A stretch of DNA of 64,000 bases, from contig NZ_CAKKLX010000016.1 in NCBI RefSeq assembly GCF_918698155.1, forward strand, positions 1 through 64,000, read 5' to 3'. The notes beneath the pieces are model-generated. The model worked only from the letters and a program-made list of their open reading frames with translations. It made no database searches and had not been told where the DNA came from. Shown here one piece after another: positions 10,980 through 32,630 of the stretch. The stretch is from Roseomonas sp. CECT 9278 (lineage in GTDB: Bacteria > Pseudomonadota > Alphaproteobacteria > Acetobacterales > Acetobacteraceae). The position numbers and the translations under genes were made by a program. Positions within the stretch are counted from its first letter, which is position 1; the number at the start of each line of letters is the position of its first letter.

Positions 10980-10984
10980 GCCGA

Positions 10985-11970: not shown

Positions 11971-12015
11971 ACGCCGCGCCGCGATGGCTCTCGCCCCGTG
12001 CAGGTCGCCCGCAGC

Positions 12016-12050
12016 GGCGCCCGATCGGATGGGTCGATCCGATCGGCGCC
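12016..12050 (-). terminator. Hairpin terminator after the L,D-transpeptidase gene
   Basis: Arms GGCGCC plus GATCGGAT and ATCCGATC plus GGCGCC form a 14-bp stem with a single bulged C and the loop GGGTCG. It starts 4 bases after the stop of the minus-strand gene at 12055. There is no clear T-run, so it would act as an imperfect intrinsic terminator or as 3'-end protection. Confidence 0.55.
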
Positions 12051-12054
12051 TGGT

Positions 12055-13518
12055 CTATGCCGCCGGCTGCCGGCGCAGCCGCCGCCATACGGTCGGGTCG
12101 CGGTCGTAGAAATCCGCCCGGAACTGCATCGCGCCCTCAAGGTCGACGAAGGCGGTGCGGTAGGTCAGGAAGACCGGCACCGGCGCCGGCAGCCGGGCGC
12201 GGCTGGTGGTGCCGGTCGCGATCCGGCGGTCGATCTCCTCGATCGATTCCTCCATCAGCAGCGCGGCGAGCTGGCGGGGATCCTGCACGCGGATGCAGCC
12301 GCGGCTCATGCGGCGGTTGCTGCGGCTGAAGACGAAGCGGTCGGGCGTGTCGTGCAGGTACACGTCGAAGCGGTTGGGCATGTCGAACAGCAGGAAGCCG
12401 AGGCCGGCCTCGGGCCCGGCGGATTGCTCGACCTCGCCATTCGCGCGCATCACCATGTTGTTGCGCGCAAGATATTCTGGGTCGCGTTCCAGCCGCGGCA
12501 GGATTTCCGCGGTGACGATGTCGCGCGGGATCACCCAGGGCGGATTGAAGAAGCTGGCTTCGATCAGCGCGTGGAATTCCGGCGTCTGGTTGCGCTCGGC
12601 GTTGTCGCCAACGACGACCGCGGTGGTGAAGACCGGCTGGTGGTCGCGGTAGAGCACCAGCTGCTGGTCCGGCACGTTCACCCAGACGCGATCCGCCGGC
12701 AGCTCGCGCGGCAGCCAGCGTTCGCGCTCGAGGTTGGCCTCGATGCTGCGCTGGCGCTGGGCGGCCGCCAGCGCGGCCGTGGCGGCGCGCCCGCGTGGCT
12801 GGGCGGCCAGGCGCGGCAGGCGCTGCAGGTGCGGCCCGCCGCCGCGCATGGCCAGGCGCAGGCCCAGATAGGTGGGGGTCTGCGGCGCCAGCGCCTCCAG
12901 CGCGCCGGCGGGATTGTCGCTGGCGATCGCGGCCTCCAGCGCGGCGGCCAGGTCGACGGTCGCGGGCGCCATCGCCTCGGCGCTGGTCCGCTTGTCGGCC
13001 GGCACGGCGCCATGCGCCAGAGCACCGGCATAGGCCATGAAGGCGTCGGTCAGCAGCACGTCGCGGTGCAGCGGGGCGATGGTGTCCTGGCGCCGCAGCA
13101 GGCCGGCGTGGAACATCTCGGGGTCCAGACCGTGGTCGCCGGCGCGCAGCACCATGGCCACCAGGTCATCGGCCTGGCCTTCGCGCGTGGCCCAGACCGG
13201 CTGGAACTGGCGCGGCGCGTAGAATTGCCGCAGTGCGGCGGCGTCGAGCGTCTCGCCGCCGACCACGGGGCCGGACCCAGCCGCCAGCATGCGGGCGAGC
13301 GGCGTGAGCTGCGGCGGCGATGCGACCGGCGGTGGCGGCGGCCGCGACGCACAGGCGCCCAGGCCGCCGGCCGTCAGCATCGCCGCGGTGCCGCGGGCCA
13401 GGACCATGCGCCGGGTCGGTGCGGGGCGCGCGATCGGCTGGCGCGCCTGGTCGACCTCGGATGGTCTGCTCGAATCCACGTCCGCTCCTGGTGCCGGCAG
13501 AGCCGATCGATACGACAT
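12055..13518 (-). CDS. L,D-transpeptidase, YcbB/LdtD family, lipoprotein
   Basis: This 487-residue cell-wall enzyme would form 3-3 cross-links in peptidoglycan. A leader with TRRMVLARG (35-43) and a lipobox LGAC (Cys56) suggests a twin-arginine-like, lipid-anchored precursor. An N-terminal YcbB-type scaffold domain follows (FYAPRQFQPVW, RAGDHGLDPEMFH). The YkuD catalytic domain contains VNVPDQQLVLYRDHQPVF, FFNPPWVIPRDIV and the active-site motif NRRMSRGCIRVQDP with the nucleophilic Cys and the preceding LHDTPD histidine. The peptidoglycan-binding domain between the two is short. It is transcribed away from the small lipoprotein gene at 13588, with only about 70 bases between the starts. An internal start near residue 38 is possible. 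Confidence 0.88.
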   Translation of the reverse strand: MSYRSALPAPGADVDSSRPSEVDQARQPIARPAPTRRMVLARGTAAMLTAGGLGACASRPPPPPVASPPQLTPLARMLAAGSGPVVGGETLDAAALRQFYAPRQFQPVWATREGQADDLVAMVLRAGDHGLDPEMFHAGLLRRQDTIAPLHRDVLLTDAFMAYAGALAHGAVPADKRTSAEAMAPATVDLAAALEAAIASDNPAGALEALAPQTPTYLGLRLAMRGGGPHLQRLPRLAAQPRGRAATAALAAAQRQRSIEANLERERWLPRELPADRVWVNVPDQQLVLYRDHQPVFTTAVVVGDNAERNQTPEFHALIEASFFNPPWVIPRDIVTAEILPRLERDPEYLARNNMVMRANGEVEQSAGPEAGLGFLLFDMPNRFDVYLHDTPDRFVFSRSNRRMSRGCIRVQDPRQLAALLMEESIEEIDRRIATGTTSRARLPAPVPVFLTYRTAFVDLEGAMQFRADFYDRDPTVWRRLRRQPAA

Positions 13519-13587
13519 TTGACTCCGTCCCGAGACTTGCCATTCAATTCAGCGCTGTCCAAGCGCCATTCGATGAAGGGAATACAG

Positions 13588-13755
13588 ATGATGGTTGTTT
13601 TCAATAAGGTGGCTCGCCACGCTTTCCGTCGTTCGGCGCTGCTGGCCCTGCTGGCCCCCGTGCTGTTCGTCGCCGCCTGCGCCCAGCAGCCGCCGCCGCC
13701 CCCGCCGGTGCAGGTTGCCCCGCCGCCGGCGCCGGTTCCGGCCGCCCGCGGCTGA
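13588..13755 (+). CDS. Small proline-rich lipoprotein
   Basis: This 55-residue protein has a basic start (VVFNKVARHAFRRS), a hydrophobic segment ALLALLAPVLFVAA and a lipobox VAAC followed by QQ. The mature tail of about 22 residues is nearly all proline, valine and alanine (PPPPPPVQVAPPPAPVP). The Shine-Dalgarno-like AAGGGA at 13576-13581 lies 6 bases before ATG 13588; an ATG at 13573 is in frame but has no such site. A strong hairpin follows the stop. The shape recalls short lipoproteins that tether or space the outer membrane, and the divergent neighbour is a peptidoglycan enzyme. No function can be assigned from sequence. Confidence 0.65.
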   Translation: MMVVFNKVARHAFRRSALLALLAPVLFVAACAQQPPPPPPVQVAPPPAPVPAARG

Positions 13756-14129
13756 TCGGCCGGGCACGGCAAGTCAGGCCTTGCCGTGCCCTCCGCCGCG
13801 CCTGCGCGGCTGCGACCCCGGTTGCGGCGTCACCGCGCCGGGCCTTTCCCGTGCGCGCGCCGCCGAATGCCGGCGCCGCGCCGTCAGGGGGCAGGGGCCC
13901 CGCCTGCAGGGCGACCTGTCCCGCCATGATCGCGGGGTCTTCGCAAGCGCCGAAGCGATCGCGCGCGCGGCGGTGTGTGCCGAAGGCTCCGGCGATGCCG
14001 GTCACGTCCGCGGTGCCATGCCGGCGCGGGGCCGCCGGCACCGTTGACCAGCCGGGCGCGTCGTGGAGGCCTCGGTTGCGCGCGGCCGCAAACCGTACCA
14101 CATAAGTCGGGATTTCACCGCCATCCCGG
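13756..14129. other. 374-base non-coding gap
   Basis: Between the small lipoprotein and the Nfu gene I see the hairpin at 13762-13791 and nothing else. Open frames crossing it are arginine/proline-rich shadows without start signals. The promoter of the Nfu gene should lie at its right end, but no clear -35/-10 pair can be read. Confidence 0.6.
13762..13791 (+). terminator. Strong hairpin after the small lipoprotein gene
   Basis: GGGCACGGCAAG and CTTGCCGTGCCC form a perfect 12-bp stem with the loop TCAGGC, starting 6 bases after the stop codon. No T-run follows, which is common for terminator-like hairpins in very GC-rich genomes. Confidence 0.7.
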
Positions 14130-14705
14130 ATGACCGCCATGTTCATCGAGACCGAAGCCACCCCGAACCCGGCCACGCTGAAGTTCCTGCCCGGACGCGA
14201 TGTGCTGGGCGGCCGCGGCACCGCCGACTTCACCGCCGCCGCCGAGGCCGCCGGCCGGTCCCCGCTGGCCGAACGCGTGTTCCAGGTGGGCGATGTGGCG
14301 CGGGTCTTCCTCGGCGCCGACTTCGTCACCGTGACCAAGGCGGATGACGCCGACTGGGCGCTGCTGCGGCCGCGCGTGCTCGGCGCCATCATGGAGCACT
14401 ACCTGTCCGGCATGCCGATCCTGGAAGGCACGGCCGAGGGCGAGCACGGCGAGGATTTCGACGCCGCCGACACCGAGGTGGTGGCGCAGATCAAGGAACT
14501 GCTCGACACCCGCGTGCGCCCGGCGGTGGCCGGCGATGGCGGCGACATCACCTTCCACGGCTTCCGCGACGGCATCGTGAAGCTGCGGATGCAGGGGGCC
14601 TGCTCGGGGTGCCCGTCCTCGCGCGCCACGCTCAAGCACGGGGTCGAGAACATGCTGCGCCACTATGTCCCCGAGGTGGTGGCGGTGGAGCAGGTCGAGG
14701 CCTGA
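14130..14705 (+). CDS. Nfu-type Fe-S cluster carrier (NifU C-terminal domain)
   Basis: This 191-residue Fe-S cluster carrier has the two-domain architecture of mitochondrial and alphaproteobacterial Nfu. The N-terminal Nfu domain (MFIETEATPNPATLKFLPG) is followed by a NifU-like domain (RPAVAGDGGDITFHGF) with the cluster-binding CxxC in GACSGCPSSRATLKHGVENM. It would pass [4Fe-4S] clusters to apo-enzymes in the cytoplasm. ATG 14130 gives three extra residues over an in-frame ATG at 14139, and either could be used. It stands alone, with 116 bases before the next gene. Confidence 0.93.
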   Translation: MTAMFIETEATPNPATLKFLPGRDVLGGRGTADFTAAAEAAGRSPLAERVFQVGDVARVFLGADFVTVTKADDADWALLRPRVLGAIMEHYLSGMPILEGTAEGEHGEDFDAADTEVVAQIKELLDTRVRPAVAGDGGDITFHGFRDGIVKLRMQGACSGCPSSRATLKHGVENMLRHYVPEVVAVEQVEA

Positions 14706-22141: not shown

Positions 22142-22196
22142 CAGGGGGCGTCGCGGGCCTATGCCTTGCGGCCGTGATGCACTGCAGCGAGGCCCC

Positions 22197-24077
22197 GTGA
22201 CCGCCACCGACGCCAAGACCCGCGCCCTGACGCCCGCCCTCGTGCTCGGGGTACTGGGCGTCGTCTATGGGGATATCGGCACATCGCCGCTCTATGCGCT
22301 GCGCGCCGCGCTGGTGCATTTCACCAGCGGCGGGCTCGAACGCTGGGAGATCCTGGGCATCCTCAGCCTGATCGTCTGGGCGCTGATCCTGACGGTGACG
22401 GTGAAGTACGTCGTGTTCATCCTGCGCGCCGACAACCGTGGCGAGGGCGGGATCCTCGCGCTGATGGCACTGGCCCAGCGCGGGGTCGAGAACGAACGTG
22501 CGCGCTGGACCATCGCGCTGATCGGCATCGTCGGCGCCTGCCTGTTCTTCGGCGACGGCATCATCACGCCGGCCATCTCGGTGCTCTCGGCGGTCGAGGG
22601 CCTGAAGGTCGTCTCGCCGCATTTCGAGGAAGCGGTGATCCCGATCGCGCTGGTCATCCTGCTGGCGCTGTTCCTCGTGCAGTTCACCGGCACCGGGCGG
22701 ATGGGCGCGATCTTCGGGCCCATCTGCGCTGCCTGGTTCGGCGCGCTGGCGCTGCTGGGCTTGTGGGAGGTGGTGCTGCACCCCTCCGTGCTGCTGGCGC
22801 TGTCGCCGCACTACGCCATCCAGTTCTGCCTGGAATACCGCCTGGCCGCCTTCATCGCCTTCGGCTCGGTGGTGCTGGCGGTGACCGGGGCCGAGGCGCT
22901 GTACGCCGACATGGGCCATTTCGGCCGCCACCCGATCCGCTGGGCCTGGCTGTGGCTGGTGCTGCCGGCCCTGACGCTGAACTATCTGGGCCAGGGCGCG
23001 CTGCTGCTGCGCGACCCGAGCGCGATCGAAAACCCCTTCTTCCTGCTCGCCCCCGAATGGTTCCGGCTGCCGCTGGTGTTCCTGGCCACCGCCGCGACCA
23101 TCATCGCCAGCCAGGCGATGATCTCGGGTGCCTACACCATCGCGCGGCAATGCGTGCAACTCGGCTTCATCCCGCGGCTGGAGGTCAAGCACACCAGCGA
23201 GACCGAGGAGGGGCAGATCTACATGCCCCAGGTCAACCTTCTGCTGCTCATCGGCGTTGTCATCCTGGTGCTGTCCTTCCACACCTCGGACAACCTGGCG
23301 GCGGCCTATGGCATCGCGGTGACGGGCACCTTCGTGTGCACGTCGATCCTCGCGATCATTGTCTTCCAGCGGCATTTCGGCTGGGCCTGGGCGGCGTCAG
23401 TCGGCGTGTTCGGGCCGCTGCTGCTGATCGACGTGCTGTTCTTCGCGTCCAACGTGCTCAAGATCCCGCAGGGCGGCTACGTGCCGCTGGTGCTGGGCGC
23501 GGCGCTGTTCGCGATGATGACGACCTGGCATCGCGGGCGGGAATTGCTGTTCGCGCGCTTCCGCCAGGACGGGCTGCCGCTGAAGTCGTTCATCGCGCGC
23601 CTGCCGCAGTCGCGCACGATCCGCGTGCCAGGCACCGCGGTGTTCATGACCAGCCAGGCGGATTTCCTGCCGGGCGCGCTGCTCCATAACCTCAAGCACA
23701 ACAAGGTGCTGCACGAGCGCGTGCTGTTCGTGACCGTGACGAATGAAGGCATTCCCGTGGTCGACCCCGATCGCCGCCGCGTGGTCGAGCAACTGGCCCC
23801 CGACATCCACCGCATCGGCCTGCACTACGGCTTCCAGGAAAGCCCGAACATTCCGAAGGAGCTGGAGGCGCTGCGCGACCTCGGCATCCCCTTCGAACCG
23901 ATGCAGACATCGTACTTCCTGGGCCGCGAGACGGTGGTCGCGGCCGCCGTGCCCAAGATGTCGCGCTGGCGGCAGTGGCTGTTCACGATCATGTCGCGCA
24001 ACGCCGTGCCCGCCACGGAGTTCTTCCGCATACCATCCGACCGCGTGGTCGAATTGGGAGTAAGGGTCGCGATCTGA
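22197..24077 (+). CDS. kup: Low-affinity potassium transporter Kup
   Basis: This K+/H+ symporter of about 626 residues has some twelve membrane segments and a cytoplasmic C-terminal domain. The N-terminus shows the family signature [17 protein letters not shown]. Other landmarks are [69 protein letters not shown] and [30 protein letters not shown] in the C-domain. I prefer GTG 22197, preceded by AGCGAGG; an in-frame ATG at 22161 would add 12 residues. The stop is 2 bases before the next small gene. Confidence 0.94.
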
Positions 24078-24079
24078 CG

Positions 24080-24451
24080 ATGGGCACATTTGGCATCACG
24101 CTCGTGCTGGCGGCCGGGCCCGGCTCTGCCGACGGCCATCCCGCGCGCCGCTACGAGATCGACCTGGCGCTCGATGCCGCAGGACGACCGGATGCGGCGG
24201 CCTGGGCGGCGGATCCGCGGCCCTGGCGCGCCCGCCGCATCGACCCCGGCGCCGAACCCCTGCAGGGGGACGTGCAGCACGACCCCGACCATGGCTGGTC
24301 GATCCGCTTCTTCGGCACGGCCTCCGAGGGGCCCGACGCGCCCGAGACGCATTTCGACTGCGGCCCCGACCCCGTCCGACCCGGCGAATACGCCACCGTC
24401 GTCGAACCCGACGGGGCGGCCTTCAGCTATCGCGTCGTGGCGGTCGGCTGA
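24080..24451 (+). CDS. Small cytoplasmic protein of unknown function
   Basis: This 123-residue acidic protein starts at ATG 24080, two bases after the kup stop, so it is probably co-transcribed with kup. It reads as compact beta-rich sequence: ITLVLAAGPGSADGHPARRYEIDL, the tract RPDAAAWAADPRPWRARRI, then DVQHDPDHGWSIRFFG, and FSYRVVAVG at the end. There is no signal peptide, membrane segment or recognisable motif. Normal amino-acid balance and the tight spacing support that it is real. I do not recognise a family. Confidence 0.6.
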   Translation: MGTFGITLVLAAGPGSADGHPARRYEIDLALDAAGRPDAAAWAADPRPWRARRIDPGAEPLQGDVQHDPDHGWSIRFFGTASEGPDAPETHFDCGPDPVRPGEYATVVEPDGAAFSYRVVAVG

Positions 24452-24616: not shown

Positions 24617-25393
24617 GTGAGCACCGGCGACCACATCGCTCCGCAGCCCATCGCCGCGCCGTCGCGCCCGCGGCGCCGCGCCATCATCGGCATCGGCGTC
24701 GGGCTTGCGGCACTCGGCATCGTCGCGGGCATCGGGGCGTTGCGCGGCGGGTCGGCCAGCGCCAGCGCGGCAGCCGACCCGCTGGCGGCGCGTGTCGCGC
24801 GGCTCGAAGCCACGATCGCCGCCGCGCGCGACGAACCGCGCCCGGCCCCGGCGCCGGTCGCCGCCGCCCAGCGCGCCGACCGCTTCATCGCCGCCGCCTT
24901 GCTGCTGCAATCCGCGATCGCCACGCCGCGCCCGTGGCTGCGCGAATACCAGGTCATGGTGGCGCTCGCGCCGACCGGCGCGCTGCCGGCGCCGCTGGCC
25001 GAGGTGCTGCTGAGCCACGCCGGCCGCGGCCTGCCCACCGAAGCCGAACTCCGCGAGCGTTTCGTCAGCCTGGCGCCGCAACTTGCCGCACGCGCGCCGC
25101 GCCAGGGCGATGCGATCGACCAGACCTTCTCGGCGCTGCGCGGCGCCGTCGCCGGCATCGGCCTCGCCGCCCCGCCCGCGCCGTCCGACCAGGAACAGGC
25201 CATCGCCGGCGTCGTGCAGCAGCTGCGCCGGGGCAACCTGGCGGCGGCTGTGGCCGATGCATCCGCGCTGGCACCGTCGCTGCAGCCCCTGCTGGTCGGC
25301 TGGCTGGCCCAGGCCAGCGCGCGACTCGCTGTCGAGCAGGCGGTCCAGGAAACCCTGCTGCGCGCCCTGATGTCCCAGGCGCCGCCGGCATGA
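24617..25393 (+). CDS. Single-TM periplasmic protein, mitofilin/COG4223-like helical domain
   Basis: This protein of about 258 residues has a cytoplasmic start (STGDHIAPQPIAAPSRPRRR), one membrane anchor (AIIGIGVGLAALGIVAGIGAL) and a helical periplasmic domain, including the coiled-coil-like LAARVARLEATIAAAR. The C-terminal part (FIAAALLLQSAIATPRPW, LRRGNLAAAVADASALAPSLQPLL, GWLAQASARLAVEQAV) resembles the alphaproteobacterial mitofilin-like COG4223 proteins. It also resembles the protein encoded at 30533-31276. I chose GTG 24617 because it begins just before the basic segment; a GTG at 24551 would add 22 residues. Its stop overlaps the frame of the next gene (ATGA). Confidence 0.7.
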   Translation: MSTGDHIAPQPIAAPSRPRRRAIIGIGVGLAALGIVAGIGALRGGSASASAAADPLAARVARLEATIAAARDEPRPAPAPVAAAQRADRFIAAALLLQSAIATPRPWLREYQVMVALAPTGALPAPLAEVLLSHAGRGLPTEAELRERFVSLAPQLAARAPRQGDAIDQTFSALRGAVAGIGLAAPPAPSDQEQAIAGVVQQLRRGNLAAAVADASALAPSLQPLLVGWLAQASARLAVEQAVQETLLRALMSQAPPA

Positions 25394-25422
25394 CCCGCCC
25401 CCCATCCAGAACGGAGACTGCC

Positions 25423-26481
25423 TTGCGCCACCTCGTCCTTGGCCTTGCCGCCGGACTTCTCCTGTTCGGCGGTGGTCCCGCCGCCGCACAGGGCACGATG
25501 ACGCTGCGCGACCGCCTCATGATCGTCACCTCCTCCGCCACCATCGGGCTCGGCGAACTGCTGTCCCGCAGCTTCGCCGAACGCTTCGAGGGCGTGGTGC
25601 CGCCGCAGGCGACGCGGCTCGGTTCGGTGCGCGCGATGGAGGCCTTCTGCGCCGGCATCGGCCCGCAGACGCCGGACCTCCTGCTGCTCACGCGCCGGCT
25701 GCCGCGCGCGGTGGTGGAGACCTGCGCCGCCAACGGCGTGCGCGACATCATCGAAGTCCAGCTCGGCCTGGGCGCCGTGGTGCTGGCGGCGCGGCGCGGG
25801 GAGGCGATGCCCGGCCTCACCACCCGCCAGGTCTTCGAGGCGCTCGCCGCCGAGCGCCCGGTCGACGAGGAATTCGTCCCGAACCCGTCGCGCGTCTGGT
25901 CGGATCTCGGCCCCGGGCTGCCGCGCAACGAGATCCGCGTGATCCTTCCCGCCGCCGGCTCCGGCCCGCGCGCCCTGTTCGACGACCTGGTGATGGAGGC
26001 CGGCTGCCGCTACGTGCGCGACATCCGCCTGCTGTTCGAAGCAGCGTATCGCCGCGCCAAGTGCATCACCGCGCGCAACGACGGGCGCGTGGTGAACGTG
26101 CCGTACAACCAGCTGGCGGCGGCGCTGCTCGCGGCACCGCCGGGCACGCTGGGCGCCGTCAGCTTCGAACAGCTGACCGCCAGCGGCGGCAACCTGGTGC
26201 CGGTCGCGCTGGACAGCGTCACGCCGACCATCGCCGCCATCGGCAGCCTGGACTACGAGCAGGCGCGCACCTTCTTCGTCTATGCGAAGCGCCAGCACAG
26301 CCGGAACCAGCAGGGCGTGGGCGTGGTGCGCGGCATCCGCGAGTTCCTGATCGAAAGCGTCAGCGAACATGCCGGCGGCCCCGGCGGCTACCTGGCGGTG
26401 GCCGGACTGGTGCCCCTGGCCCCGGCCGATCGCGCGGCGCAGCGCCGCATCGCCGACGAAGCCCGCCTGATGTCCCGCTGA
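25423..26481 (+). CDS. PstS-like substrate-binding protein without partner transporter
   Basis: This exported protein of about 352 residues has a signal peptide RHLVLGLAAGLLLFGGGPAAAQ. The mature part follows the PBP-like fold of phosphate-binding proteins: LMIVTSSATIGLGELLSRSFAERFEG, TPDLLLLTRRLPRAVVETC, LGLGAVVLAARRGEAMPGLTTRQVFEAL, RVILPAAGSGPRALF and LGAVSFEQLTASGGNLVPVALD. The phosphate-binding residues of true PstS are not obvious. TTG 25423 has ACGGAGA 5 bases upstream; ATG 25390, overlapping the previous stop, is the alternative. No pstCAB genes are near, so it is probably a sensor or structural binding protein of this cluster rather than part of an importer. Confidence 0.75.
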   Translation: MRHLVLGLAAGLLLFGGGPAAAQGTMTLRDRLMIVTSSATIGLGELLSRSFAERFEGVVPPQATRLGSVRAMEAFCAGIGPQTPDLLLLTRRLPRAVVETCAANGVRDIIEVQLGLGAVVLAARRGEAMPGLTTRQVFEALAAERPVDEEFVPNPSRVWSDLGPGLPRNEIRVILPAAGSGPRALFDDLVMEAGCRYVRDIRLLFEAAYRRAKCITARNDGRVVNVPYNQLAAALLAAPPGTLGAVSFEQLTASGGNLVPVALDSVTPTIAAIGSLDYEQARTFFVYAKRQHSRNQQGVGVVRGIREFLIESVSEHAGGPGGYLAVAGLVPLAPADRAAQRRIADEARLMSR

Positions 26482-26505
26482 CCCGCCGCGAAACGGAACC
26501 CCCCC

Positions 26506-27219
26506 ATGCTCGCCAAGGCCATCGCCGTCTCCGCTTTGCTCGCGCTGCCCTGCATCGCATTCGCCCAGCCCGCGCCGCCGGCGCTGATCCCCGCGCCGTT
26601 GCAGGACCTGCCGTCGGATGACGGGGTGATGGCCCGCGCCGAGCGGCTCTGGAGCGGGCTGATGGACAGCTTCGGGATCGGCTTCGGCACCGGCAGCTCG
26701 CTGGCCCGCGGCCACGCCATGGCCAATGCCCATCAGCAGGCGCGCAGCGACTTCGCCTGGCTGATGGACATCGCCGGCTACAAGCTGAAGGAGATCGAAT
26801 CCTCGATCAGCCTGCTGCCCAGCCTGTCGCTCACCTTCGGCCAGGCGCGCGAGCTCACGGAAGCCGACCGCGACTACGTCGAGCGCATGCTCGAACGCCA
26901 TGCGCGGCGCAATCCGGGCCCGATCTCGGCGCTCCAGCGCACCATCGTGCGCGGCGTGATGGATGCGGGCGAGCTCGGCGGCTTCGCGGTCGACAAGGTG
27001 GAGGTCGACCTGTTCCCGCTGCCGCGCGTGAAGTTCCAGCTCTCGCCCGCCGATGCGCCGCTCGGCGTCGAGGCGAGCCGCATCCTGCGTGCGATCGACC
27101 GGCTCAATCACCGCGTGCAGGCCATGGCGCGCCAACAGGCTCCGGGCGGTCGCCAGACGCTGGAACTGCCCGGTTCCACGCCGGCGCCGCTGCTGCCGGC
27201 GCTTTCCATCCAGCACTGA
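26506..27219 (+). CDS. Exported protein of unknown function
   Basis: This 237-residue protein has a clear signal peptide (MLAKAIAVSALLALPCIAFAQP). The mature sequence is helical and amphipathic: VMARAERLWSGLMDSFGIG, MANAHQQARSDFAWLMDIAGYKLKEIESS, RELTEADRDYVERMLERHARR and EASRILRAIDRLNHRVQAMARQ. It has no cysteine pair and no membrane segment, so it is probably soluble in the periplasm. It is co-oriented with the PstS-like gene (24 bases between them) and the small helical gene after it. I do not recognise the family. Confidence 0.7.
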   Translation: MLAKAIAVSALLALPCIAFAQPAPPALIPAPLQDLPSDDGVMARAERLWSGLMDSFGIGFGTGSSLARGHAMANAHQQARSDFAWLMDIAGYKLKEIESSISLLPSLSLTFGQARELTEADRDYVERMLERHARRNPGPISALQRTIVRGVMDAGELGGFAVDKVEVDLFPLPRVKFQLSPADAPLGVEASRILRAIDRLNHRVQAMARQQAPGGRQTLELPGSTPAPLLPALSIQH

Positions 27220-27274
27220 TCCCGAATTCCCGACCGCGCCAGGACGGCGCAGACCGCGAAAGGCAGAAGGCCCG

Positions 27275-27709
27275 ATGACCGCGACGGACACGCCGCCCCG
27301 GCAACGCTTTGGGGAATTGGTGAAGCTGCAGCTCCAGGGCCGCCGCTTCCTGGACCGCGACCAGGAACGCCGCCTCCTCGAGGACGGCATCACCCGCTAC
27401 GGCCTCAGCCTCGACCAGGCGAGCGGCCTGCTGCGCGGGGCAGCGCAGGAGGATTCGATCGCGCTGGAAGGCGAGCTCGGCGCCTCCTCGCGCGAGTTGC
27501 TGCGCACCCTGGCGGACCGCCGCGACCGCATCGCGCGGGACGATTTCCGCCGCGCGGTCGCCTTCTACCGCGCCCGCGCCGGCGGCGGCGTGACCGAGGC
27601 CGAGGCGCAGAAGCGCGTGAAGCGGCTGATGGAGGAACTCAACCTGCAGCCGCGCCCGACCGGGCGGATCATCCGGTCGCGGCGCTGGTACCGCGCGATC
27701 GAAGCATGA
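27275..27709 (+). CDS. Stand-alone helical domain protein (same module as C-terminus of the carbonic-anhydrase-like protein)
   Basis: This 144-residue cytoplasmic protein is all-helical, highly charged and has no membrane segment. Residues 36-144 (beginning EDGITRYGLSLDQASGLL, with a middle DDFRRAVAFYRARAGGGVTE and an end RSRRWYRAIEA) align almost without gaps to residues 206-314 of the protein encoded at 31686-32630. I count about 40 identities over about 109 positions by hand. The conserved core is Y-R-x(7)-TEAEA-x2-RV-x2-L. ATG 27275 follows GGCAGAAGG. Its overlap with the next start (ATGA at 27706) places it in the cluster transcript. The family function is unknown to me. Confidence 0.72.
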   Translation: MTATDTPPRQRFGELVKLQLQGRRFLDRDQERRLLEDGITRYGLSLDQASGLLRGAAQEDSIALEGELGASSRELLRTLADRRDRIARDDFRRAVAFYRARAGGGVTEAEAQKRVKRLMEELNLQPRPTGRIIRSRRWYRAIEA

Positions 27710-27723
27710 CCGGGAGCGCCACC

Positions 27724-28020
27724 ATGACCCGCATCCTCGCCTTACTCGCGCTGATCCTGCTGGCCGCGCCGGCCGCCGCCCAGGCGCCCGCCGCCGCGCT
27801 GCCGCCACCGGTTCCGGCCGCGACCCGCACGGCGACCGCACCCGCGATGCCGCAGATCTCGGCCGGCCATGCCGCGGCGCTCGGCGCCGGCATGTTCATC
27901 GGCGCGCTGGCGGGCTCGGCGCTGATCCATGGCGGCGCGCTGGCCGCGCTGATCGGCGCCGCCGCCGGGGTCACGGTCAGCCACTGGTACTGGACCGAGC
28001 ACCACGACGACGCCGACTGA
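27724..28020 (+). CDS. Small membrane protein with glycine-zipper-like segment
   Basis: This 98-residue protein has a signal peptide or first TM (MTRILALLALILLAAPAAAQ), an alanine/proline linker and a long glycine/alanine-rich hydrophobic stretch (HAAALGAGMFIGALAGSALIHGG, then ALAALIGAAAGVTVSHWYW). It ends in the charged tail TEHHDDAD. The GxxxG spacing recalls glycine-zipper membrane peptides. ATG 27724 has GGGAG 7 bases upstream; an ATG at 27706 overlaps the previous stop but lacks such a site. It sits inside the uncharacterised envelope cluster. Confidence 0.65.
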   Translation: MTRILALLALILLAAPAAAQAPAAALPPPVPAATRTATAPAMPQISAGHAAALGAGMFIGALAGSALIHGGALAALIGAAAGVTVSHWYWTEHHDDAD

Positions 28021-28089
28021 CACGCGCCCGGCGGTGCAGGACGCGCCGCCGCTTCACGACCACCCGCTGCGCCGCGGAGGATCCCGGCC

Positions 28090-28890
28090 TTGGACATCCT
28101 GCTGCCCCATGGGCTTGCCTCGTTGCCGGCCTGGTTCGGCATGGCCATCACCATCGCCGTGCCGGTGGCGATCGCGCTGCTGCTGGGGCGCGTCATGTAC
28201 GCCATCTTCACGCCAGCCGAATTCCAGGCCAATGCGGTGGTCGGCGCGGTCAAGTACGGCTTCGTGGTCGAGATCTACGCGGTGGTCGCCGCCCTCACGC
28301 TGGTCGGCGCCTGGGACACCTTCCAGACCGCGCGCGACACGCTGCAGAAGGAAGCCTCGGGCCTGTACATGCTGGCCCAGGCGATTGAGACCTATGACGG
28401 CGCCGAGCTCGCCGCCACCCGGGCCGAGATGCGCGGCGCGATCCGCGGCTATGCCGGCGCCGTGGTGGCGCAGGACTGGCCGGCCATGCAGGCGGGCCAT
28501 GCCTCGGCCGGGTCCGATGCCGCGTTCCAACGCATGACGCGCGCCTTCCTTGATGTCGAGGGCCGACGCGCGGCGCAGCATGCCTTGCAGCAGAACACCG
28601 CGGGGTGGCTCGGCCAGGTGGCGGAGGCGCGCATCGCGCGGCTGTCCGTGCAGTCGCGCACGCTGTCGGGGCTGATCTGGATGCTTGTGCTGACCGTCTC
28701 GGTCGCCGTCATCGCCTTCCAGTGGTTCTTCGGCGGCGCATCGGCGGCGATGCATTACGCGATGGCGGCGGTCATCGCGGTGATCGTGGGGTCGGTGCTG
28801 CTGGTGTCGGTCAAGCTCGCCTTTCCCTATGTCGGCGATCCGGCGCTGCTCACGCCCGCGCCCTTCCTCGCGATGATGGATCTGCGCTGA
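28090..28890 (+). CDS. DUF4239-type membrane protein
   Basis: This 266-residue inner-membrane protein has two N-terminal hydrophobic segments (WFGMAITIAVPVAIALLLG and YGFVVEIYAVVAALTLVGAW), a helical soluble middle part rich in Ala/Gln (residues about 75-190) and two C-terminal TMs (SGLIWMLVLTVSVAVIAFQWF and AVIAVIVGSVLLVSVKLAF). The TM pair, long helical insert, TM pair layout is that of DUF4239 (bestrophin-like) proteins. The start is TTG 28090 with GGAGG 9 bases upstream. It is the last plus-strand gene before the minus-strand insert at 28905. Confidence 0.72.
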   Translation: MDILLPHGLASLPAWFGMAITIAVPVAIALLLGRVMYAIFTPAEFQANAVVGAVKYGFVVEIYAVVAALTLVGAWDTFQTARDTLQKEASGLYMLAQAIETYDGAELAATRAEMRGAIRGYAGAVVAQDWPAMQAGHASAGSDAAFQRMTRAFLDVEGRRAAQHALQQNTAGWLGQVAEARIARLSVQSRTLSGLIWMLVLTVSVAVIAFQWFFGGASAAMHYAMAAVIAVIVGSVLLVSVKLAFPYVGDPALLTPAPFLAMMDLR

Positions 28891-28904
28891 TGACGGACCG
28901 CCAC

Positions 28905-29504
28905 TCAGTGCGCCGCGCGCACCCGGTATCGCCAGTGCTGGAAACCCAGCAGCGCGACGGCGAACAGCCAGGGGCCGAGCTGCGCGGCGAACCAGCCGAG
29001 CAGGTAGGCCGAGTAGTGCAGCAGCAGCGTGATGTGCAGCGCCAGCATCAGGAAGGCGCAGAAGGCGCGCAGCCGCGCCGTGCCGTACCACAGCCGCAGC
29101 GCGGTCAGGCTGCCGTACAGGAAGCCCAGCAGCGCCAGCCAGGTCACGAAGGCGGCGGCGAAGCCGTCCCCGCGCAGCGCATCGGGCAAGGCGGCGACGG
29201 CTTCGGCGCGCGGCAGGCCGTGGCTGCCGAGCATCGCCAGCAGGCTGGCACCCCAGGGCCCTTCGCCGCCCAGCACATGGCCCGGCAGGAACATCGCGCG
29301 GTCGGGCGCGGCCAGGATCAGCGCCAGGCCGAGGGCGCCGCCGGTGCAGACCGCCAGCAGGCGCAGCAGCGGCACCGCCTCGGCATCATGCGGCGCGGCG
29401 ATGGCGAAGGCCGCGTGCGCGATCCGCGCCAGCGCGACCGCGAGGCCCAGCGCCAGCAACGCCGCCGCAAGCCCGCCCAGGATGTCGCCAAGACCGCTCT
29501 CCAT
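28905..29504 (-). CDS. Membrane protein of unknown function, antisense to the surrounding cluster
   Basis: This 199-residue protein has about five hydrophobic segments, for example LAAALLALGLAVALARIAHAA, LLAVCTGGALGLALILAA, FVTWLALLGFLYGSLTALRLW, FCAFLMLALHITLLLHYSAY and LGPWLFAVALLGFQHW. A loop with GHVLGGEGPWGASLLAMLGSHG recalls membrane proteins with an extracytoplasmic loop. Composition is normal on this strand, while the opposite strand reads as an arginine/glutamine shadow, so the minus-strand call is firm. Its stop is 14 bases from the DUF4239 stop and its start only 24 bases from the next plus-strand start. AGGAGG lies just 1 base before the ATG, which is unusually close. Confidence 0.72.
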   Translation of the reverse strand: MESGLGDILGGLAAALLALGLAVALARIAHAAFAIAAPHDAEAVPLLRLLAVCTGGALGLALILAAPDRAMFLPGHVLGGEGPWGASLLAMLGSHGLPRAEAVAALPDALRGDGFAAAFVTWLALLGFLYGSLTALRLWYGTARLRAFCAFLMLALHITLLLHYSAYLLGWFAAQLGPWLFAVALLGFQHWRYRVRAAH

Positions 29505-29528
29505 GCCTCCTGCATAGGCCGCCGTGGG

Positions 29529-30542
29529 TTGACGCTTGCTTGCCTGTGGCTGGCGCTGCTCCTGCTGGCCGTGCCGCTGCGCGCCGAGACCATCGCCATC
29601 GCCCCGCCCGGCGGCGGCGCCTGCCGTATCCACGCCGCCCCGCCCGGCACCCACGCCGCAGAACGCGCGGCACTGGAGACCGAGGCCACGCGCATCGCCG
29701 CCTTCGCCGCGCGGCTGCTGGCCGATGCGGCGGCGATGCGCCTCGGCCCCGCGCGGGAGGGCGTGCCCGGCTTCGGCGACTGGGCCTATGGCTGGGTGCA
29801 GAGCTACGTCACCTCCTATCGCATCCTGCTGCGCGGCATGACCGGCCTGGCACGATCCGTCACCACCGAGGACGAGGCGCCACTCACCACCCGCATCGCC
29901 GAGGAAATGGCCGAACCCCTGCGCGCAGAATTCCGCGCCCGCGTGCTGGCGCCGGCGCTGGATGGGGGCAGCTTCGCGGCCGACCTCGCGCATGTCGGCG
30001 CGGCGGTCGATGCCGCCTGGACGACGGCGCTCGCCGCCAGCGCGGCGCGCATCGCCGCCCTGCCGCACGGTGCCGGCGTGCCGTCGCACCGGCTGGACCT
30101 GGATGCCGCGGGCGCGGCGCTGACCCCGGGCATCCTGGCAACCGCGCCAGCCGATCCGATGGCCCTGCTGGCCGAGGATGGCGCCGATGGCAGCACCGTG
30201 TTCCTGCGATCCATGCGCCCGATGGCCGCGCGGCTCGGCGCGGTGGCGGTGCGGCTGAGCGAGGCCGGGTCGCTGGTCGCGGCCGGTGGCGGGCTCGGCT
30301 TCGCGATGGCGGGCGTGCCGGGCACGCTGATCGGCCTGACCGGCGGCATCGGCGCCTCCTGGGCGATCGACTGGCTGCTCAATCGCCTGGACGCCTCGCT
30401 CAATCGTGCCGCCTTCGAAAGCCAGGCGATCGAGGCGATCGGTCGCGCCGAACGGCATCTCGCGCAGGGCGCGGCCGCCGTCGTGGAGGCTGCGCTGCGG
30501 CGCCGCCTGGAGGTTCTCGGGACGGAGATCGAATGCCGATGA
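29529..30542 (+). CDS. Exported helical protein of unknown function
   Basis: This protein of about 337 residues has a signal sequence (LTLACLWLALLLLAVPLRAE) starting at TTG 29529, the only plausible start before it. The mature part has many alanine-rich helices (ERAALETEATRIAAFAARLLADAAAM), a region with WAYGWVQSYVTSYRILLRG and a glycine-rich hydrophobic segment (SLVAAGGGLGFAMAGVPGTLIG then LTGGIGASWAIDWLLNRLD) that could insert in a membrane. The end (AIGRAERHLAQGAAAVVEAALRRRLEVLG) is helical. Its 3' end overlaps the start of the next gene by 10 bases. I do not recognise the family. Confidence 0.65.
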   Translation: MTLACLWLALLLLAVPLRAETIAIAPPGGGACRIHAAPPGTHAAERAALETEATRIAAFAARLLADAAAMRLGPAREGVPGFGDWAYGWVQSYVTSYRILLRGMTGLARSVTTEDEAPLTTRIAEEMAEPLRAEFRARVLAPALDGGSFAADLAHVGAAVDAAWTTALAASAARIAALPHGAGVPSHRLDLDAAGAALTPGILATAPADPMALLAEDGADGSTVFLRSMRPMAARLGAVAVRLSEAGSLVAAGGGLGFAMAGVPGTLIGLTGGIGASWAIDWLLNRLDASLNRAAFESQAIEAIGRAERHLAQGAAAVVEAALRRRLEVLGTEIECR

Positions 30543-31276
30543 GCGACGCCACGCAGGAAACTCCCGCCACGCGGGTCGCGCCCGGCGACTGGACGGCGCT
30601 CCTCACGCTCTGCCTCGCCGCGCTGTCCGGGCTGTTCTCGGTGCTGGCGCTGGTGGTCGCGCTGCATGGCGCGCCACCGATGGTCACCACTGCGGCGCAT
30701 GCCGCGGCGCCGCCCTGGGGCACCGAGGCACGGGTGGAACCGCCGCTCGCCGGCGATGCGCCGCGGCTGTTGGTGGCGATCGAATTGCTGATGCCGCATT
30801 TGCCGCGCGGCGCGCCCTTCCCGCGCGCCTTCGCGGTGGCGGTGGCGCTGGCGGCCGGCGATGCCGAAGCGACGCGCCTGCTGCTGCCGCTCGCCCCCGC
30901 CGCGGCCGAGGGCGCCCCCACGCTGCGGCGCCTGGCCGAGGAGTTCGACGCCGCCGCCGATGCCGCTGTGCTGGCCGAGATGGGCTTCGGCCCCGATGCC
31001 GGCTGGCTGGCGCGCCGCGTCGCCGCGACGATGCGCCTCGGCGCCACGGTCGGCGCCGCCGGCACGCCGGGGCTGGCGGCCCTGCGGGAGACCGCGGCGC
31101 TGCTCGCGGCCGGCGATGCGCCGGCGGCGGAGGCGATGCTCGCGACCCTGGCGCCGGGCACCGGGGCGGCGCTGGGCGGTTGGCGCGCGGGGCTGCGCCG
31201 GCGCATTGCCCTCGATCACGCGCAGGCACGCCTGTCGGCGCTGGCGCTGGAACGCGCGCAGGCGGTCGCACCATGA
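30533..31276 (+). CDS. Single-TM periplasmic protein, related to the product of 24617-25393
   Basis: This 247-residue protein has a short cytoplasmic N-terminus, one TM (LTLCLAALSGLFSVLALVVAL) and a helical periplasmic domain. The domain follows the order seen in the protein at 24617: PRLLVAIELLMPHLPRGAPF, PTLRRLAEEFDAAADAAV, LLAAGDAPAAEAMLATLAPG and GGWRAGLRRRIALDHAQARL. The match is weaker than for the other paralogous pair but is co-linear. COG4223/mitofilin-like is the best guess. GGAG lies 5 bases before ATG 30533. It overlaps the gene before it and, as ATGA at 31273, the gene after it. Confidence 0.68.
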   Translation: MPMSDATQETPATRVAPGDWTALLTLCLAALSGLFSVLALVVALHGAPPMVTTAAHAAAPPWGTEARVEPPLAGDAPRLLVAIELLMPHLPRGAPFPRAFAVAVALAAGDAEATRLLLPLAPAAAEGAPTLRRLAEEFDAAADAAVLAEMGFGPDAGWLARRVAATMRLGATVGAAGTPGLAALRETAALLAAGDAPAAEAMLATLAPGTGAALGGWRAGLRRRIALDHAQARLSALALERAQAVAP

Positions 31277-31689
31277 GCGCGGCGCGCTTCGACTGGCGCG
31301 GCGTGGTGTCGCGCGCGTTGTTCTGCCTGTTCATCGTCTTCGCGATCTACAACCCGTCGGGCACATCCTTCCTGCATTGGGTGCTGTCGGGGTTCGACTG
31401 GTTCTGGGTGAAGCTCGCGACGGGCGCGGCGCTGGTCGCGATCTGCATGGTCATGTGGCGCACCACGATCGGCGTGCTGGGCCTGCGCGGCGTCGTGCTG
31501 GTGATCGCCTTCTGCATCGGCATGGGCATGACCGGGCTGCACCTGACCGGCAGCCGCCTGCTGGCGGGCGACACGCTGCTGGTGGGCGTGCTGGCGTCGC
31601 TCGCGGGCGTGTTCACCGCGGGGCTCTGCTACTCGCACCTGCATCATCGCCTGGGCGGGATCTCGCATACGGAGGATCTGAACAAGTGA
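31273..31689 (+). CDS. Small four-TM membrane protein, DUF6524-like
   Basis: This 138-residue protein has four predicted membrane segments: ALFCLFIVFAIYNPSG, KLATGAALVAICMVMW, GVVLVIAFCIGMGMTGLHL and LLVGVLASLAGVFTAGLCYSH. The start (RFDWRGVVSRALFCLF) with YNPSGTSFLHWV matches my memory of DUF6524 proteins, which carry an NPTG-x-SYxHW motif; that is a recollection and not a search. It ends in the soluble tail HHRLGGISHTEDLNK. Both neighbours overlap it, so the three proteins are made together. Confidence 0.72.
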   Translation: MSAARFDWRGVVSRALFCLFIVFAIYNPSGTSFLHWVLSGFDWFWVKLATGAALVAICMVMWRTTIGVLGLRGVVLVIAFCIGMGMTGLHLTGSRLLAGDTLLVGVLASLAGVFTAGLCYSHLHHRLGGISHTEDLNK

Positions 31690-32630
31690 CCGCTGCCGCC
31701 GACACCACGACGCCGCGCAAGGCCGATGCCTTCCTGGTCAGCTGCATCGACCCGCGGCTGACCGACGACACCACCTTCCTGATGGCCGCGCTGGGGCGCA
31801 CCGACCGCTACAGCGAGATGCGCATCGCCGGCGCGGCGCTTGCCGCGGTGGATCCCGCGCGCCCGGCCTGGAACACGGCGCTGTGGGAGAACCTGGCGGC
31901 ATCGCGCCAGCTGCATGGCGTGCGCGAGGTGATCTTCGTGAACCACCGCGATTGCGGCGCCATGCATGGCTGGGCCGGGCGCCGCCTGTCCGACGATCCG
32001 GCCGATGAACTGCGCCAGCATCACGGCGTGCTGGAACGCGCCGCCGCCGCGGTGCGCGCGCGCCATCCCGACCTGGGCGTGACCATCAAGCTGATGGAGC
32101 TGGATGGCAGCGCGCGGGTGCTGCCCTGTGCCGCCTGCGGCCCGGCGGGCGGGCTGCGGGCGGAGGCGGTCGATCCGGCCGGTGGGCCGGGCGACCCGGC
32201 CGTGCTCCCGGTCCGCCCCGGCGCGGCGGCCTTCGCCGACCTGGTCCGCCTGCGCGCGGGCGGCGGCCTCACGGACCCCGATGCCGAGCTGGCGCTGCTG
32301 ACCGACGGTGTCGTGCAGCATGGTCTGACCGCGGCGGAGGCCCGCGCCGTGCTGCTGGCGGAGGCCCGTCGCAGCGGCACCGCCAGCGGGAGCGCCGCGG
32401 CCGCCGAGGCCCGCGCCTTCCTGCGCGCACAGGCCGATCCGCGCGGGCGCGTGGCGCGCACCGATGCGTTGCATGCCGCCGCGCTCTACCGCCGCGTCAC
32501 CGGCCGGCAGGCCACCGAGGCCGAGGCCACCCGCCGCGTGGCGACGCTGATCGAGGCAGAGGGGCTGGCGCCGCGTCCAGATGGCGTGCTGCGCTCCACC
32601 ACCTGGTTCCGCCGCATGGCGCAGGCCTGA
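31686..32630 (+). CDS. Beta-carbonic-anhydrase-like domain fused to a helical module
   Basis: This 314-residue cytoplasmic protein starts at GTG 31686, overlapping the previous stop. Residues 15-145 form a compact beta-carbonic-anhydrase-like domain. Cys20-Ile-Asp22-Pro-Arg24 supplies the first zinc ligand and the Asp/Arg dyad, and His87-x-x-Cys90 (NHRDCGAMHGW) supplies the other ligands. All key residues of the family are therefore present, though the domain is shorter than usual. Residues about 150-205 are a glycine/proline-rich linker. Residues 206-314 match the stand-alone protein of 27275-27709. It ends the plus-strand cluster and converges with the exonuclease gene. CO2/bicarbonate chemistry or sensing is a reasonable inference; activity is unproven. 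Confidence 0.75.
   Translation: MTAAADTTTPRKADAFLVSCIDPRLTDDTTFLMAALGRTDRYSEMRIAGAALAAVDPARPAWNTALWENLAASRQLHGVREVIFVNHRDCGAMHGWAGRRLSDDPADELRQHHGVLERAAAAVRARHPDLGVTIKLMELDGSARVLPCAACGPAGGLRAEAVDPAGGPGDPAVLPVRPGAAAFADLVRLRAGGGLTDPDAELALLTDGVVQHGLTAAEARAVLLAEARRSGTASGSAAAAEARAFLRAQADPRGRVARTDALHAAALYRRVTGRQATEAEATRRVATLIEAEGLAPRPDGVLRSTTWFRRMAQA

Follow-up and report, generated by a model that had tools for sequence, protein, structure and literature searches.

A run of mostly unnamed genes occupies positions 24617 to 32630 of the window, by which we mean the whole 64,000-nucleotide stretch of Roseomonas sp. CECT 9278 DNA that was analysed. The locus raises the question of whether these genes work together and, if they do, at what. 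The original prediction described an envelope gene cluster built around a carbonic-anhydrase-like protein and tied to CO2/bicarbonate or to an anion.

Gene content and layout

The block consists of eleven genes, g1 to g11, whose membrane and export calls are based on a simple hydropathy scan and on reading (Table 1). The original prediction had counted nine or ten and missed the minus-strand g7. Its expectation that many products lie in or across the envelope was upheld: g6, g7 and g10 are predicted membrane proteins, g1 and g9 have a single predicted TM segment, and g2, g3 and g8 are predicted to be exported, leaving g4 and g11 as predicted soluble proteins. The ATGA overlaps that it had noticed proved to be part of a set of five 4-base overlaps, four of them ATGA (g1/g2, g4/g5, g8/g9 and g9/g10) and one GTGA (g10/g11).

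Table 1. Genes of the block, with their positions in the window and predicted properties
Gene	Position	Strand	Description
g1	24617-25393	+	One hydrophobic stretch near N-terminus; helical domain of mitofilin (Mic60 C-terminal) type
g2	25390-26481	+	PstS-like periplasmic binding protein, predicted exported
g3	26506-27219	+	Predicted exported; without family match
g4	27275-27709	+	Predicted soluble domain, equivalent to C-terminal half of g11
g5	27706-28020	+	Short, predicted exported/membrane; glycine-rich stretch, two hydrophobic stretches
g6	28090-28890	+	Bestrophin-like membrane protein; four hydrophobic stretches
g7	28905-29504	-	Predicted polytopic membrane protein, about five hydrophobic stretches; antisense within the gene row
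g8	about 29529-30542	+	Predicted exported, long-helix; glycine-rich stretch; TTG start inferred
g9	30539-31276	+	Mitofilin-type, single TM; paralogue of g1
g10	31273-31689	+	DUF6524 protein; four hydrophobic stretches
g11	31686-32630	+	Predicted beta-carbonic-anhydrase domain fused to g4 domain; no hydrophobic stretch

No credible Pfam family match was obtained for g3, g4, g5, g7, g8 or g9. A promoter and terminator scan was uninformative, with no promoter-like sites and two terminator-like sites against 1.7 expected. A role in anti-phage defence was rejected, since ten of the eleven block proteins (g7 left out) matched no described defence protein (PADLOC, 0/10 at E 0.01).

Conservation of the block

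Among 31 loci collected with a g3 profile, all eight core genes were observed in the same order in 23; contig ends truncate five of the remaining loci, and the last three, from Stella, consist of g1-g2-g3 or g2-g3 only. The 4-base overlap between g9 and g10 is kept in all 13 loci having both genes and that between g10 and g11 in 19 of 23. g7 is present in 24 of the 31 loci, on the minus strand every time (24/24), while g5 (13/31) and g9 (15/31) are absent from the finds in many carriers. The flanks of the block vary in part among genomes. A search of a plasmid collection with g3 gave no match.

These observations support the grouping of the genes as a set, and the scattering among relatives that the original prediction had named as its refutation was not seen. 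A chance grouping of unrelated envelope genes could appeal to the partly different flanks and to nothing else; synteny refutes it, as order, overlaps and the antisense g7 are kept across genera and the block genes are neighbours in relatives, and we give it practically no credence. It is very likely that g1 to g11 work as one unit. In literature searches, which covered listings and abstract openings only, no description was found of this gene set, consistent with the earlier remark that no named pathway contains it; DUF6524 gave no papers and DUF4239 gave 2. The block is a genuine and apparently undescribed cell-envelope system, whose order is kept in many Roseomonas-type bacteria.

Carbonic anhydrase and bestrophin-like proteins

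The assignments of g6 and g10 as DUF4239-type and DUF6524-like proteins were confirmed. g6 matches the Bestrophin-like family PF14023, of which DUF4239 is an older name (1.3e-36; 126.8 bits against a cut-off of 32), and g10 matches DUF6524 (PF20134; 5.1e-25). Anion conduction by g6 is putative, and its profile found no credible match among PDB sequences.

The reading of g11 as a beta-carbonic-anhydrase fusion also held. The window protein falls below the cut-offs of both Pro_CA_2 (0.0024; 18.5 bits against a curated 30) and Pro_CA (15.4 bits against 25.7); at E <= 1, Pro_CA_2 was matched by 22 of 22 aligned members, the best at 6.4e-7. All five zinc/catalytic residues, namely the Cys/His/Cys zinc ligands and the Asp-Arg pair, are present in the window protein. 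Over 28 rows, a count that leaves out the truncated g11 of L087 and an unrelated match of L081, C21 is kept in 27, D23 in 28, R25 in 28, H88 in 27 and C91 in 28. The g11 profile had one match among PDB sequences, a mycobacterial beta-carbonic anhydrase at E 0.088. g11 is predicted to be a beta-carbonic anhydrase, with a putative activity in CO2 hydration. Its C-terminal half and g4 are the same domain by sequence comparison (39% identity; hhalign E 9.3e-29 over 135 columns), and g4 gave only scattered weak matches against Pfam and PDB.

These proteins could form a CO2/bicarbonate shuttle that carries CO2/HCO3-/H+ equivalents through the inner membrane, with an exported carbonic anhydrase on one side of bestrophin-like channels and the cytoplasmic g11 on the other. 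The near-complete retention of the g11 residues is in keeping with such a shuttle, as is a module of the window's own genome (G000:C45) that combines a second PF14023 gene with an apparently exported carbonic anhydrase and recurs downstream of the block in G010 and G006. Several carriers have a second bestrophin-like gene adjoining the block, and a few have a second carbonic-anhydrase gene there whose product is apparently exported; this supports the CO2/anion element of the original prediction. There is also a precedent, in that algal bestrophins are reported to take part in CO2 concentration (PMC11142338).

The resemblance to the algal arrangement lies in bestrophin-like proteins accompanied by carbonic anhydrases apparently on both sides of the membrane. 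RuBisCO was unmatched in 10 of 12 carriers; RuBisCO-like scores of 91-94 bits in G002 and G027 exceed the cut-off, whereas the two strong matches in the set reach 419-451 bits, and a link to RuBisCO was not supported; no carrier has a strong match. A link to phototrophy was rejected: 8 of the 12 carriers have photosynthetic reaction-centre (puf-type) genes, as do 20 of the 23 non-carriers (p 0.2, not significant). No more than 7 of 12 carriers gave a second carbonic-anhydrase match, one zinc ligand is substituted in L061 (C21G) and one in L089 (H88Y), distant versions of the system lack the domain where scanned (see below), and the scheme has no place for most of the conserved genes. A role in CO2 alone, through a shuttle of this kind, is a live rival but unlikely, and the same holds for the idea that it would serve pH or carboxylation needs and not carbon fixation.

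The binding protein g2 and its neighbour g3

A PstS-like protein without a transporter had been predicted, and this was corroborated. g2 has a predicted signal peptide and matches PBP_like_2 (2.1e-16), its profile matches the phosphate-binding protein PDB 9jwy at E 4.3e-44, and Pfam revealed no PstC, PstA, PstB or other transporter among the block proteins. Anion binding by g2, as a PstS-like protein, is putative. Unlike PstS, g2 is tied to g1 and g3, and in one genome (G352) it is fused to the g3 domain. The g3 model (pLDDT 69.7) had no convincing fold match, with no Foldseek match at E <= 0.001 and a best VIA-align 2 Z of 6.0 over 58 residues.

It is conceivable that g2 binds a periplasmic anion of the phosphate type and passes a signal on by way of g3 and the membrane proteins. 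Both the PstS likeness and the g2-g3 fusion would suit such a sensor, and a Na/Pi cotransporter gene was observed among the system genes in G352, and Stella vacuolata has a similar gene next to g2-g3. The block, however, has no recognised kinase, regulator or transporter, and eleven genes are many for a sensor; we regard anion sensing as improbable.

Mitofilin-type and long-helix proteins

The single-TM and stand-alone helical proteins of the original prediction are present, but their further identity had been missed: g4 is the g11 C-terminal domain, and g1 and g9 appear to be distant relatives of the mitofilin domain, linked to it through intermediates only. Pfam Mitofilin was matched at E <= 10 by 9 of 11 g1 homologues, the best at 3.7e-4; the window protein, at 0.2, falls below the Pfam cut-off. 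Such a search at E <= 10 also gave matches in 7 of 14 control genomes (above the cut-off in one), so weak mitofilin matches alone mean little. Relatives found with the g1 profile in G352 and Azospirillum B510 (E 1.7e-12 and 1.2e-16) exceed the Pfam cut-off, with 31.1 and 29.9 bits against 27.4; among six g1/g9-type relatives, these two lie above it, two fall just short (26.9) and two are unmatched. g9 aligns with g1 in hhalign (probability 95.4, E 2e-8). Nothing credible was found for g1 members in NCBIfam or for the g1 profile among PDB sequences.

The alphaproteobacterial Mic60 orthologue is located in a heme operon. The window's genome has a second mitofilin-type gene outside the block, at G000:C38, whose flanks read as heme-synthesis genes and which looks like an ordinary Mic60; heme-operon location is a feature of this gene and not of g1/g9. 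Its direct comparison with g1 was weak (E 0.0098, probability 4). Like alphaproteobacterial Mic60, g1 and g9 have an N-terminal TM and a helical domain whose alignment to the mitofilin profile falls at the C-terminal end of that profile; unlike Mic60, they are short, lie in a multi-gene row and are additional to G000:C38.

An alignment of 24 members of g8 revealed an invariant Cys near each end. The g8 model (pLDDT 84.7) matched the bacterial dynamin-like protein 2j69 with a Z of 10.2 and an rmsd of 5.8 over 247 aligned residues, below the trusted level for helical bundles, and offers a hint of resemblance to a dynamin-like stalk. Foldseek gave no match to the g8 model with E <= 0.001. The top Foldseek rows, including alpha-pore-forming toxins, have TM-scores of only about 0.1-0.2, so g8 is not taken for a pore former.

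From these likenesses one might suppose that g1/g9 and g8 bend or tether the inner membrane, in invaginations or contact sites, with the other genes as cargo. The mitofilin relationship and the modelled stalk resemblance of g8 speak for this, as does the reported shaping of membranes by alphaproteobacterial Mic60 (PMC12136173). Since G000:C38 already looks like the ordinary Mic60 of the genome, and the match to 2j69 is no better than helical bundles give, we place little confidence in membrane shaping as the main role.

Association with MlaA and an ABC-MlaE fusion

Within the window's genus, a second, divergent MlaA was found in 9 of 12 carriers of the block against 3 of 23 non-carriers (one-sided Fisher p 4.9e-4), and in 8 of those 9 (8 of the 12 genus carriers) it lies at most 2 kb from the block. 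The window's own genome carries it on a different contig, where its neighbours are a second bestrophin-like gene and a carbonic anhydrase that is apparently exported. Elsewhere among the carriers, MlaA gave no match in G002 and a single match each in G017 and G027. In G020, G021 and G030 the second MlaA is present, but the 19 kb scanned revealed no further gene of the system, and MlaA stands beside the block in only 8 of the 31 g3-profile loci.

In other alphaproteobacterial families, including that of Azospirillum sp. B510, related genes occur with a fusion of an ABC ATPase and an MlaE permease, and often with MlaA. Four distant versions (Azospirillum B510, G352, G414 and G070) keep g4, g7 and g10, with g1/g9-type genes in three of the four. 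Scanning 10-57 kb around them with the g11 profile revealed no beta-carbonic-anhydrase domain; the Azospirillum B510 record has a gamma-class carbonic anhydrase annotated about 17 kb beyond the gene set. The proposal that the cluster is built around a carbonic anhydrase is not supported as stated; what the distant versions carry in its place are genes of the Mla type. The counts leave out a g8-like gene in G352, which was recognised by eye only.

At E<1e-30 the ABC-MlaE fusion was found in 6 of 385 genomes of the class, and every one of the six belongs to the 10 genomes with g3 or g4. As three of the six supplied the profile, this six-of-six is partly circular, and the fair figure, from genomes outside profile building, is 3/3 (p 3.8e-6). 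The cut was set after seeing a gap between 6e-34 and 3e-7; matches of 3e-7 to 1e-4 in eight more genomes were taken as ordinary MlaE and dropped, as was one in the second Stella locus (L174), which reads as an ABC-F protein. The fusion adjoins g1-g2-g3 in G385 and G315, and g4, g7, g10 and g1/g9-type genes in G352, G414 and Azospirillum B510; it also lies beside related genes in G070, and in G085 it and g4 are on different contigs. It was found in none of 59 relatives from the window's genus (a single-sequence query on a set without a positive control) and, with the profile, not in the window's genome, and Pfam detected no MlaE or MlaF in the window block, so the window version would be without such a pump of its own.

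The likeness to the Mla system (MlaA-MlaC-MlaFEDB) consists of the MlaA-family lipoprotein gene beside the block in 8 of the 12 genus carriers, the window's genome not among them, and, in other families, of an ABC ATPase joined to an MlaE permease in a single protein encoded next to related genes. The differences are that neither MlaC nor an MCE-domain MlaD was recognised by Pfam among the scanned proteins, including those of the block, that the exported protein accompanying the fusion in G352 and G414 has no MCE-family match, and that the block has many conserved genes missing from Mla.

A candidate trans-envelope system

Our best explanation, which we hold tentatively, is that the block represents, in its Roseomonas-type form, a trans-envelope system of Alphaproteobacteria that is so far undescribed and has a role in lipid or envelope homeostasis. 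It draws on the kept gene order, which contig ends interrupt in five of the eight remaining loci, and the kept g9/g10 and g10/g11 overlaps; on the enrichment of a second MlaA in carriers, mostly near the block; on the confinement of the fusion to g3/g4 carriers and its position beside related genes; and on the mitofilin relationship and the g2-g3 fusion. By sequence, the system appears linked physically or phyletically to MlaA-type lipoproteins and, in other families, to the ABC ATPase-MlaE fusion. Weighing against a lipid role are the failure to find the fusion in the window's genus, the lack of MCE and MlaC matches among the scanned proteins, the carriers with no second MlaA or with one on a separate contig, the second MlaA that has no system gene within the scanned stretch in three genomes, the split arrangement in G085, the small share of loci with an adjacent MlaA, and the sub-threshold mitofilin match of the window g1.

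If the system does act in lipid homeostasis, its products would assemble into a structure helping to retain or transfer lipid between the outer and inner membranes, with g1/g9 and g8 as periplasmic scaffold parts; movement of phospholipid between the membranes is putative. With less assurance, the carbonic anhydrase, bestrophin-like and PstS-like proteins may act as an input arm at the inner membrane, reading or balancing bicarbonate, protons or another anion. A fuller machine can be imagined, in which g1/g9 scaffolds and g8 span the periplasm and join an outer-membrane MlaA to inner-membrane channels or, in other families, to the ABC-MlaE pump. Paired carbonic anhydrases and bestrophin-like channels would gate it by CO2/bicarbonate, and envelope lipid flow would then follow CO2 or pH; this reading as a whole seems rather improbable to us.

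About a dozen unannotated genes become one testable system; among them are members of DUF6524 and Bestrophin-like, two Pfam families without an assigned role, and several genes that match no family. If the lipid link is true, a second route based on MlaA and containing mitofilin-domain parts would exist in some Alphaproteobacteria, with a bearing on the way Mic60-type proteins functioned before there were mitochondria. If the CO2 arm holds, there would be a bacterial role for carbonic anhydrase and bestrophin-like proteins outside carbon fixation.

Gene content of the block

The block was found to contain eleven genes, g1 to g11. A row of about nine had been proposed in the original prediction; the row is present, but the antisense gene g7 had been overlooked. 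The overlapping junctions that it claimed were also observed, five junctions having four-base overlaps. Family scans placed three products over cut-off, namely g2 (PBP_like_2, 2.1e-16), g6 (Bestrophin-like PF14023, 1.3e-36) and g10 (DUF6524, 5.1e-25). In the same scans g11 was identified under cut-off as a divergent beta-carbonic anhydrase, Pro_CA_2 being matched at E <= 1 by 22 of 22 g11 members, and no credible family was returned for g3, g4, g5, g7, g8 or g9. The g4 protein is the same domain that g11 has as its C-terminal half (E 9.3e-29), and g1 and g9, both single-TM proteins, are paralogues (probability 95.4, E 2e-8). The model of the exported g8 was confident (pLDDT 84.7, pTM 0.76) and consists mostly of long helices. 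It matched nothing at E <= 0.001 in Foldseek; the top match on a second look, the bacterial dynamin-like protein 2j69 (Z 10.2, rmsd 5.8, 247 residues), lies under the tool's trust level for helical bundles. The model of g3 was poor (pLDDT 69.7), with no useful structural match.

Judged by sequence, g1 and g9 appear to belong with mitofilin (background on alphaproteobacterial Mic60 in PMC12136173). Pfam Mitofilin was matched below cut-off by 9/11 g1 proteins (E <= 10, best 3.7e-4). Relatives found with the g1 profile in genome G352 and Azospirillum sp. B510 exceed the cut-off (31.1 and 29.9 bits), the latter being AZL_RS21625, recorded as 'mitofilin family membrane protein'; among six such relatives scanned, two pass, two are just short (26.9 bits) and two have no match. 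Low scores seem to be usual for this lineage, since a further mitofilin-type gene in the window's genome, which we read as sitting between heme-synthesis genes, reaches no more than 18.3 bits when tested in the same way. The Mitofilin search was also weakly positive in half of the control genomes, and direct comparison of g1 with that other gene was weak (E 0.0098, probability 4).

Coordinates and gene content of the block, nearby features and related gene sets (Gnnn, genomes, G000 being the window's own; Lnnn, fetched loci; Cnn, contigs)
Place	Coordinates	Strand	Content
Window	24617-32630	ten genes plus, one minus	g1-g11
Window, g7	28905-29504	minus	polytopic membrane gene
Window	22161-24451		KUP-type potassium transporter gene, then 123-residue unknown gene
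G000:C45 (L073)	about 5.7-8.6 kb		satellite module: u137, second bestrophin-like gene, divergent MlaA, second carbonic-anhydrase gene
G385, contig one			g4-g5-g6-g7-g8-g9-g10-g11
G385, another contig			MlaA, u137 (small protein), ParA-like ATPase, g1, g2, g3, ABC-MlaE fusion
G315			ABC-MlaE, ParA, g1, g2, g3
G352	within about 20 kb		mitofilin-type genes, g4, MlaA, two DUF6524, g7, ParA, g5; Na/Pi cotransporter, g3, g2, g2-g3 fusion, u137, ABC-MlaE
G352:C7 (L129)	12815-14383		g2 and g3 in one reading frame; separate g2, g3 about 2 kb off
G414 and G070			g4, g7, g10, ABC-MlaE
G085			g4, g7, two DUF6524 genes, MlaA together; ABC-MlaE on another contig
G216, second place			g4, g7, g8, g9, g10, g1-type genes
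Azospirillum sp. B510, plasmid pAB510b			g4, g7, two DUF6524, u377, ABC-MlaE, two mitofilin-type genes, MlaA
pAB510b (L211), AZL_RS21580	8002-11373		periplasmic binding, mechanosensitive-channel and cyclic-nucleotide-binding domains in one protein, beside related system
Stella vacuolata (L109)	10468-12135		Na/Pi cotransporter-like gene after second g2-g3 pair

Conservation of the block

We searched 59 relatives, 35 from the window's genus (G000 included) and 24 from other families. The block was present in 12 of the 35 (G000, G001, G002, G006, G010, G011, G012, G014, G017, G027, G028, G032), that of G017 lying on a short contig ending after g7 and those of G006 and G028 being split over two contigs. 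None of the 24 other-family genomes gave a full-length g11 match, G040 matching the carbonic-anhydrase domain only. Stand-alone g2 relatives occur in 14 of these 24 and in G003 within the genus; scanning six such neighbourhoods for the other block genes found none.

When the genomes of 84,980 species were pattern-scanned with the g3 profile, 31 loci were obtained, partly overlapping the 59-relative set. They come from Roseomonas, Neoroseomonas, Falsiroseomonas, Stella and MAGs, several being of pond or lake origin (organism labels as deposited). The neighbourhood check proposed against a chance grouping favoured the block: the genes are neighbours in relatives, and the eight core genes (g1, g2, g3, g4, g6, g8, g10, g11) are complete and in the same order in 23 of the 31 loci, counting L087, where g11 runs into the contig end, and L089, where g1 is in two frames. 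Contig ends cut five others (L079, L081, L082, L098, L103), and three, all Stella (L099, L102, L109), retain only g1-g2-g3 or g2-g3. The g9/g10 four-base overlap is kept in 13/13 loci having both genes and that of g10/g11 in 19/23, the exceptions being gaps of 13, 13 and 14 bases and one start called far upstream. g1-g11 is a conserved unit.

All 24 of these loci in which g7 was found have it antisense; L092, L100 and L101 lack it between g6 and g8, which are there separated by <=74 bases. An antisense gene kept within a row of overlapping genes is unusual in itself, and the nested arrangement could itself be regulatory. The entire block is present twice, as divergent copies, in Falsiroseomonas stagni and in one pond MAG (L084 and L092; L093 and L107). 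In L070 the KUP/123-residue gene pair lies about 4.7 kb from the block, on the opposite (g11) side.

Association with Mla-type genes

Counting MlaA in the 59 relatives revealed a second, divergent MlaA in 12/35 genus genomes, comprising 9/12 carriers of the block and 3/23 non-carriers (one-sided p 4.9e-4). It lies 0.03 to 1.7 kb from the block in eight of these nine carriers; the window's genome has it on contig C45, apart from the block. In G010 and G006 the satellite module of that contig is found immediately downstream of the block. Its second bestrophin-like gene matches PF14023 (9.9e-30 in G000), and its carbonic anhydrase is apparently exported, with an N-terminus that, read by eye, resembles a twin-arginine signal. 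The available flanks of the 31 g3 loci contain MlaA in 8 and u137 in 13. Some genomes speak against the link: G002 carries the block and gave no MlaA match, the carriers G017 and G027 have one MlaA only, and in G020, G021 and G030 a second MlaA is present, the 19 kb scanned showing no further gene of the system.

A wider sample consisted of 385 alphaproteobacterial genomes, which are not all independent of each other (G308 and G385 are one genus). It gave g3 in 6, g4 in 9 and DUF6524 over cut-off in 21, including 7/9 g4 genomes; the remaining two, G101 and G308, have g4 on a short contig. Inspection of neighbourhoods revealed related gene sets in other families, listed in the table. At E<1e-30 the ABC-MlaE permease profile matched 6/385 genomes, each of which belongs to the 10 that have g3 or g4; without the three genomes that built the profile, 3/3 have g3 or g4 (p 3.8e-6). 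Both PF00005 and PF02405 are present in the fusion of G352. By the usual definition the block falls outside the Mla pathway (background in PMC10665443): none of the proteins scanned was recognisable as MlaC or as an MCE protein, and the search of the window's genome gave no ABC-MlaE fusion.

Carbonic anhydrase and the role of the block

The zinc ligands and Asp-Arg pair of g11 are largely kept among 28 rows, two of which are loci fetched twice (C21 27, D23 28, R25 28, H88 27, C91 28), and carbonic-anhydrase activity would be plausible. The ligand replacements, C21G in L061 and H88Y in L089, may reflect errors or inactive copies. A second carbonic-anhydrase match is present in 7/12 carriers, and algal bestrophins offer background (PMC11142338). 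A role in carbon fixation is unlikely, because RuBisCO was unmatched in 10/12 carriers (the scores of G002 and G027, 91 and 94 bits, are RuBisCO-like) and phototrophy genes did not track with the block. Seventeen genus genomes, all 4.2 Mb or less, gave RuBisCO-like matches (E between about 5e-27 and 6e-20), which are confined to the smaller genomes of the genus, G002 and G027 being the two with the block. A purely CO2/bicarbonate role, which the g11 residues would fit, seems rather improbable to us, and less probable than a role in membrane lipid homeostasis.

The eleven genes form part of an envelope gene set whose order is conserved and whose junctions overlap; it recurs in several families and is linked to MlaA and ABC-MlaE genes. 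The lipid reading is weakened slightly by the sparser adjacency of MlaA in loci from outside the genus; we suggest, tentatively, that the set may take part in outer/inner membrane lipid homeostasis and may include a CO2 or anion arm.
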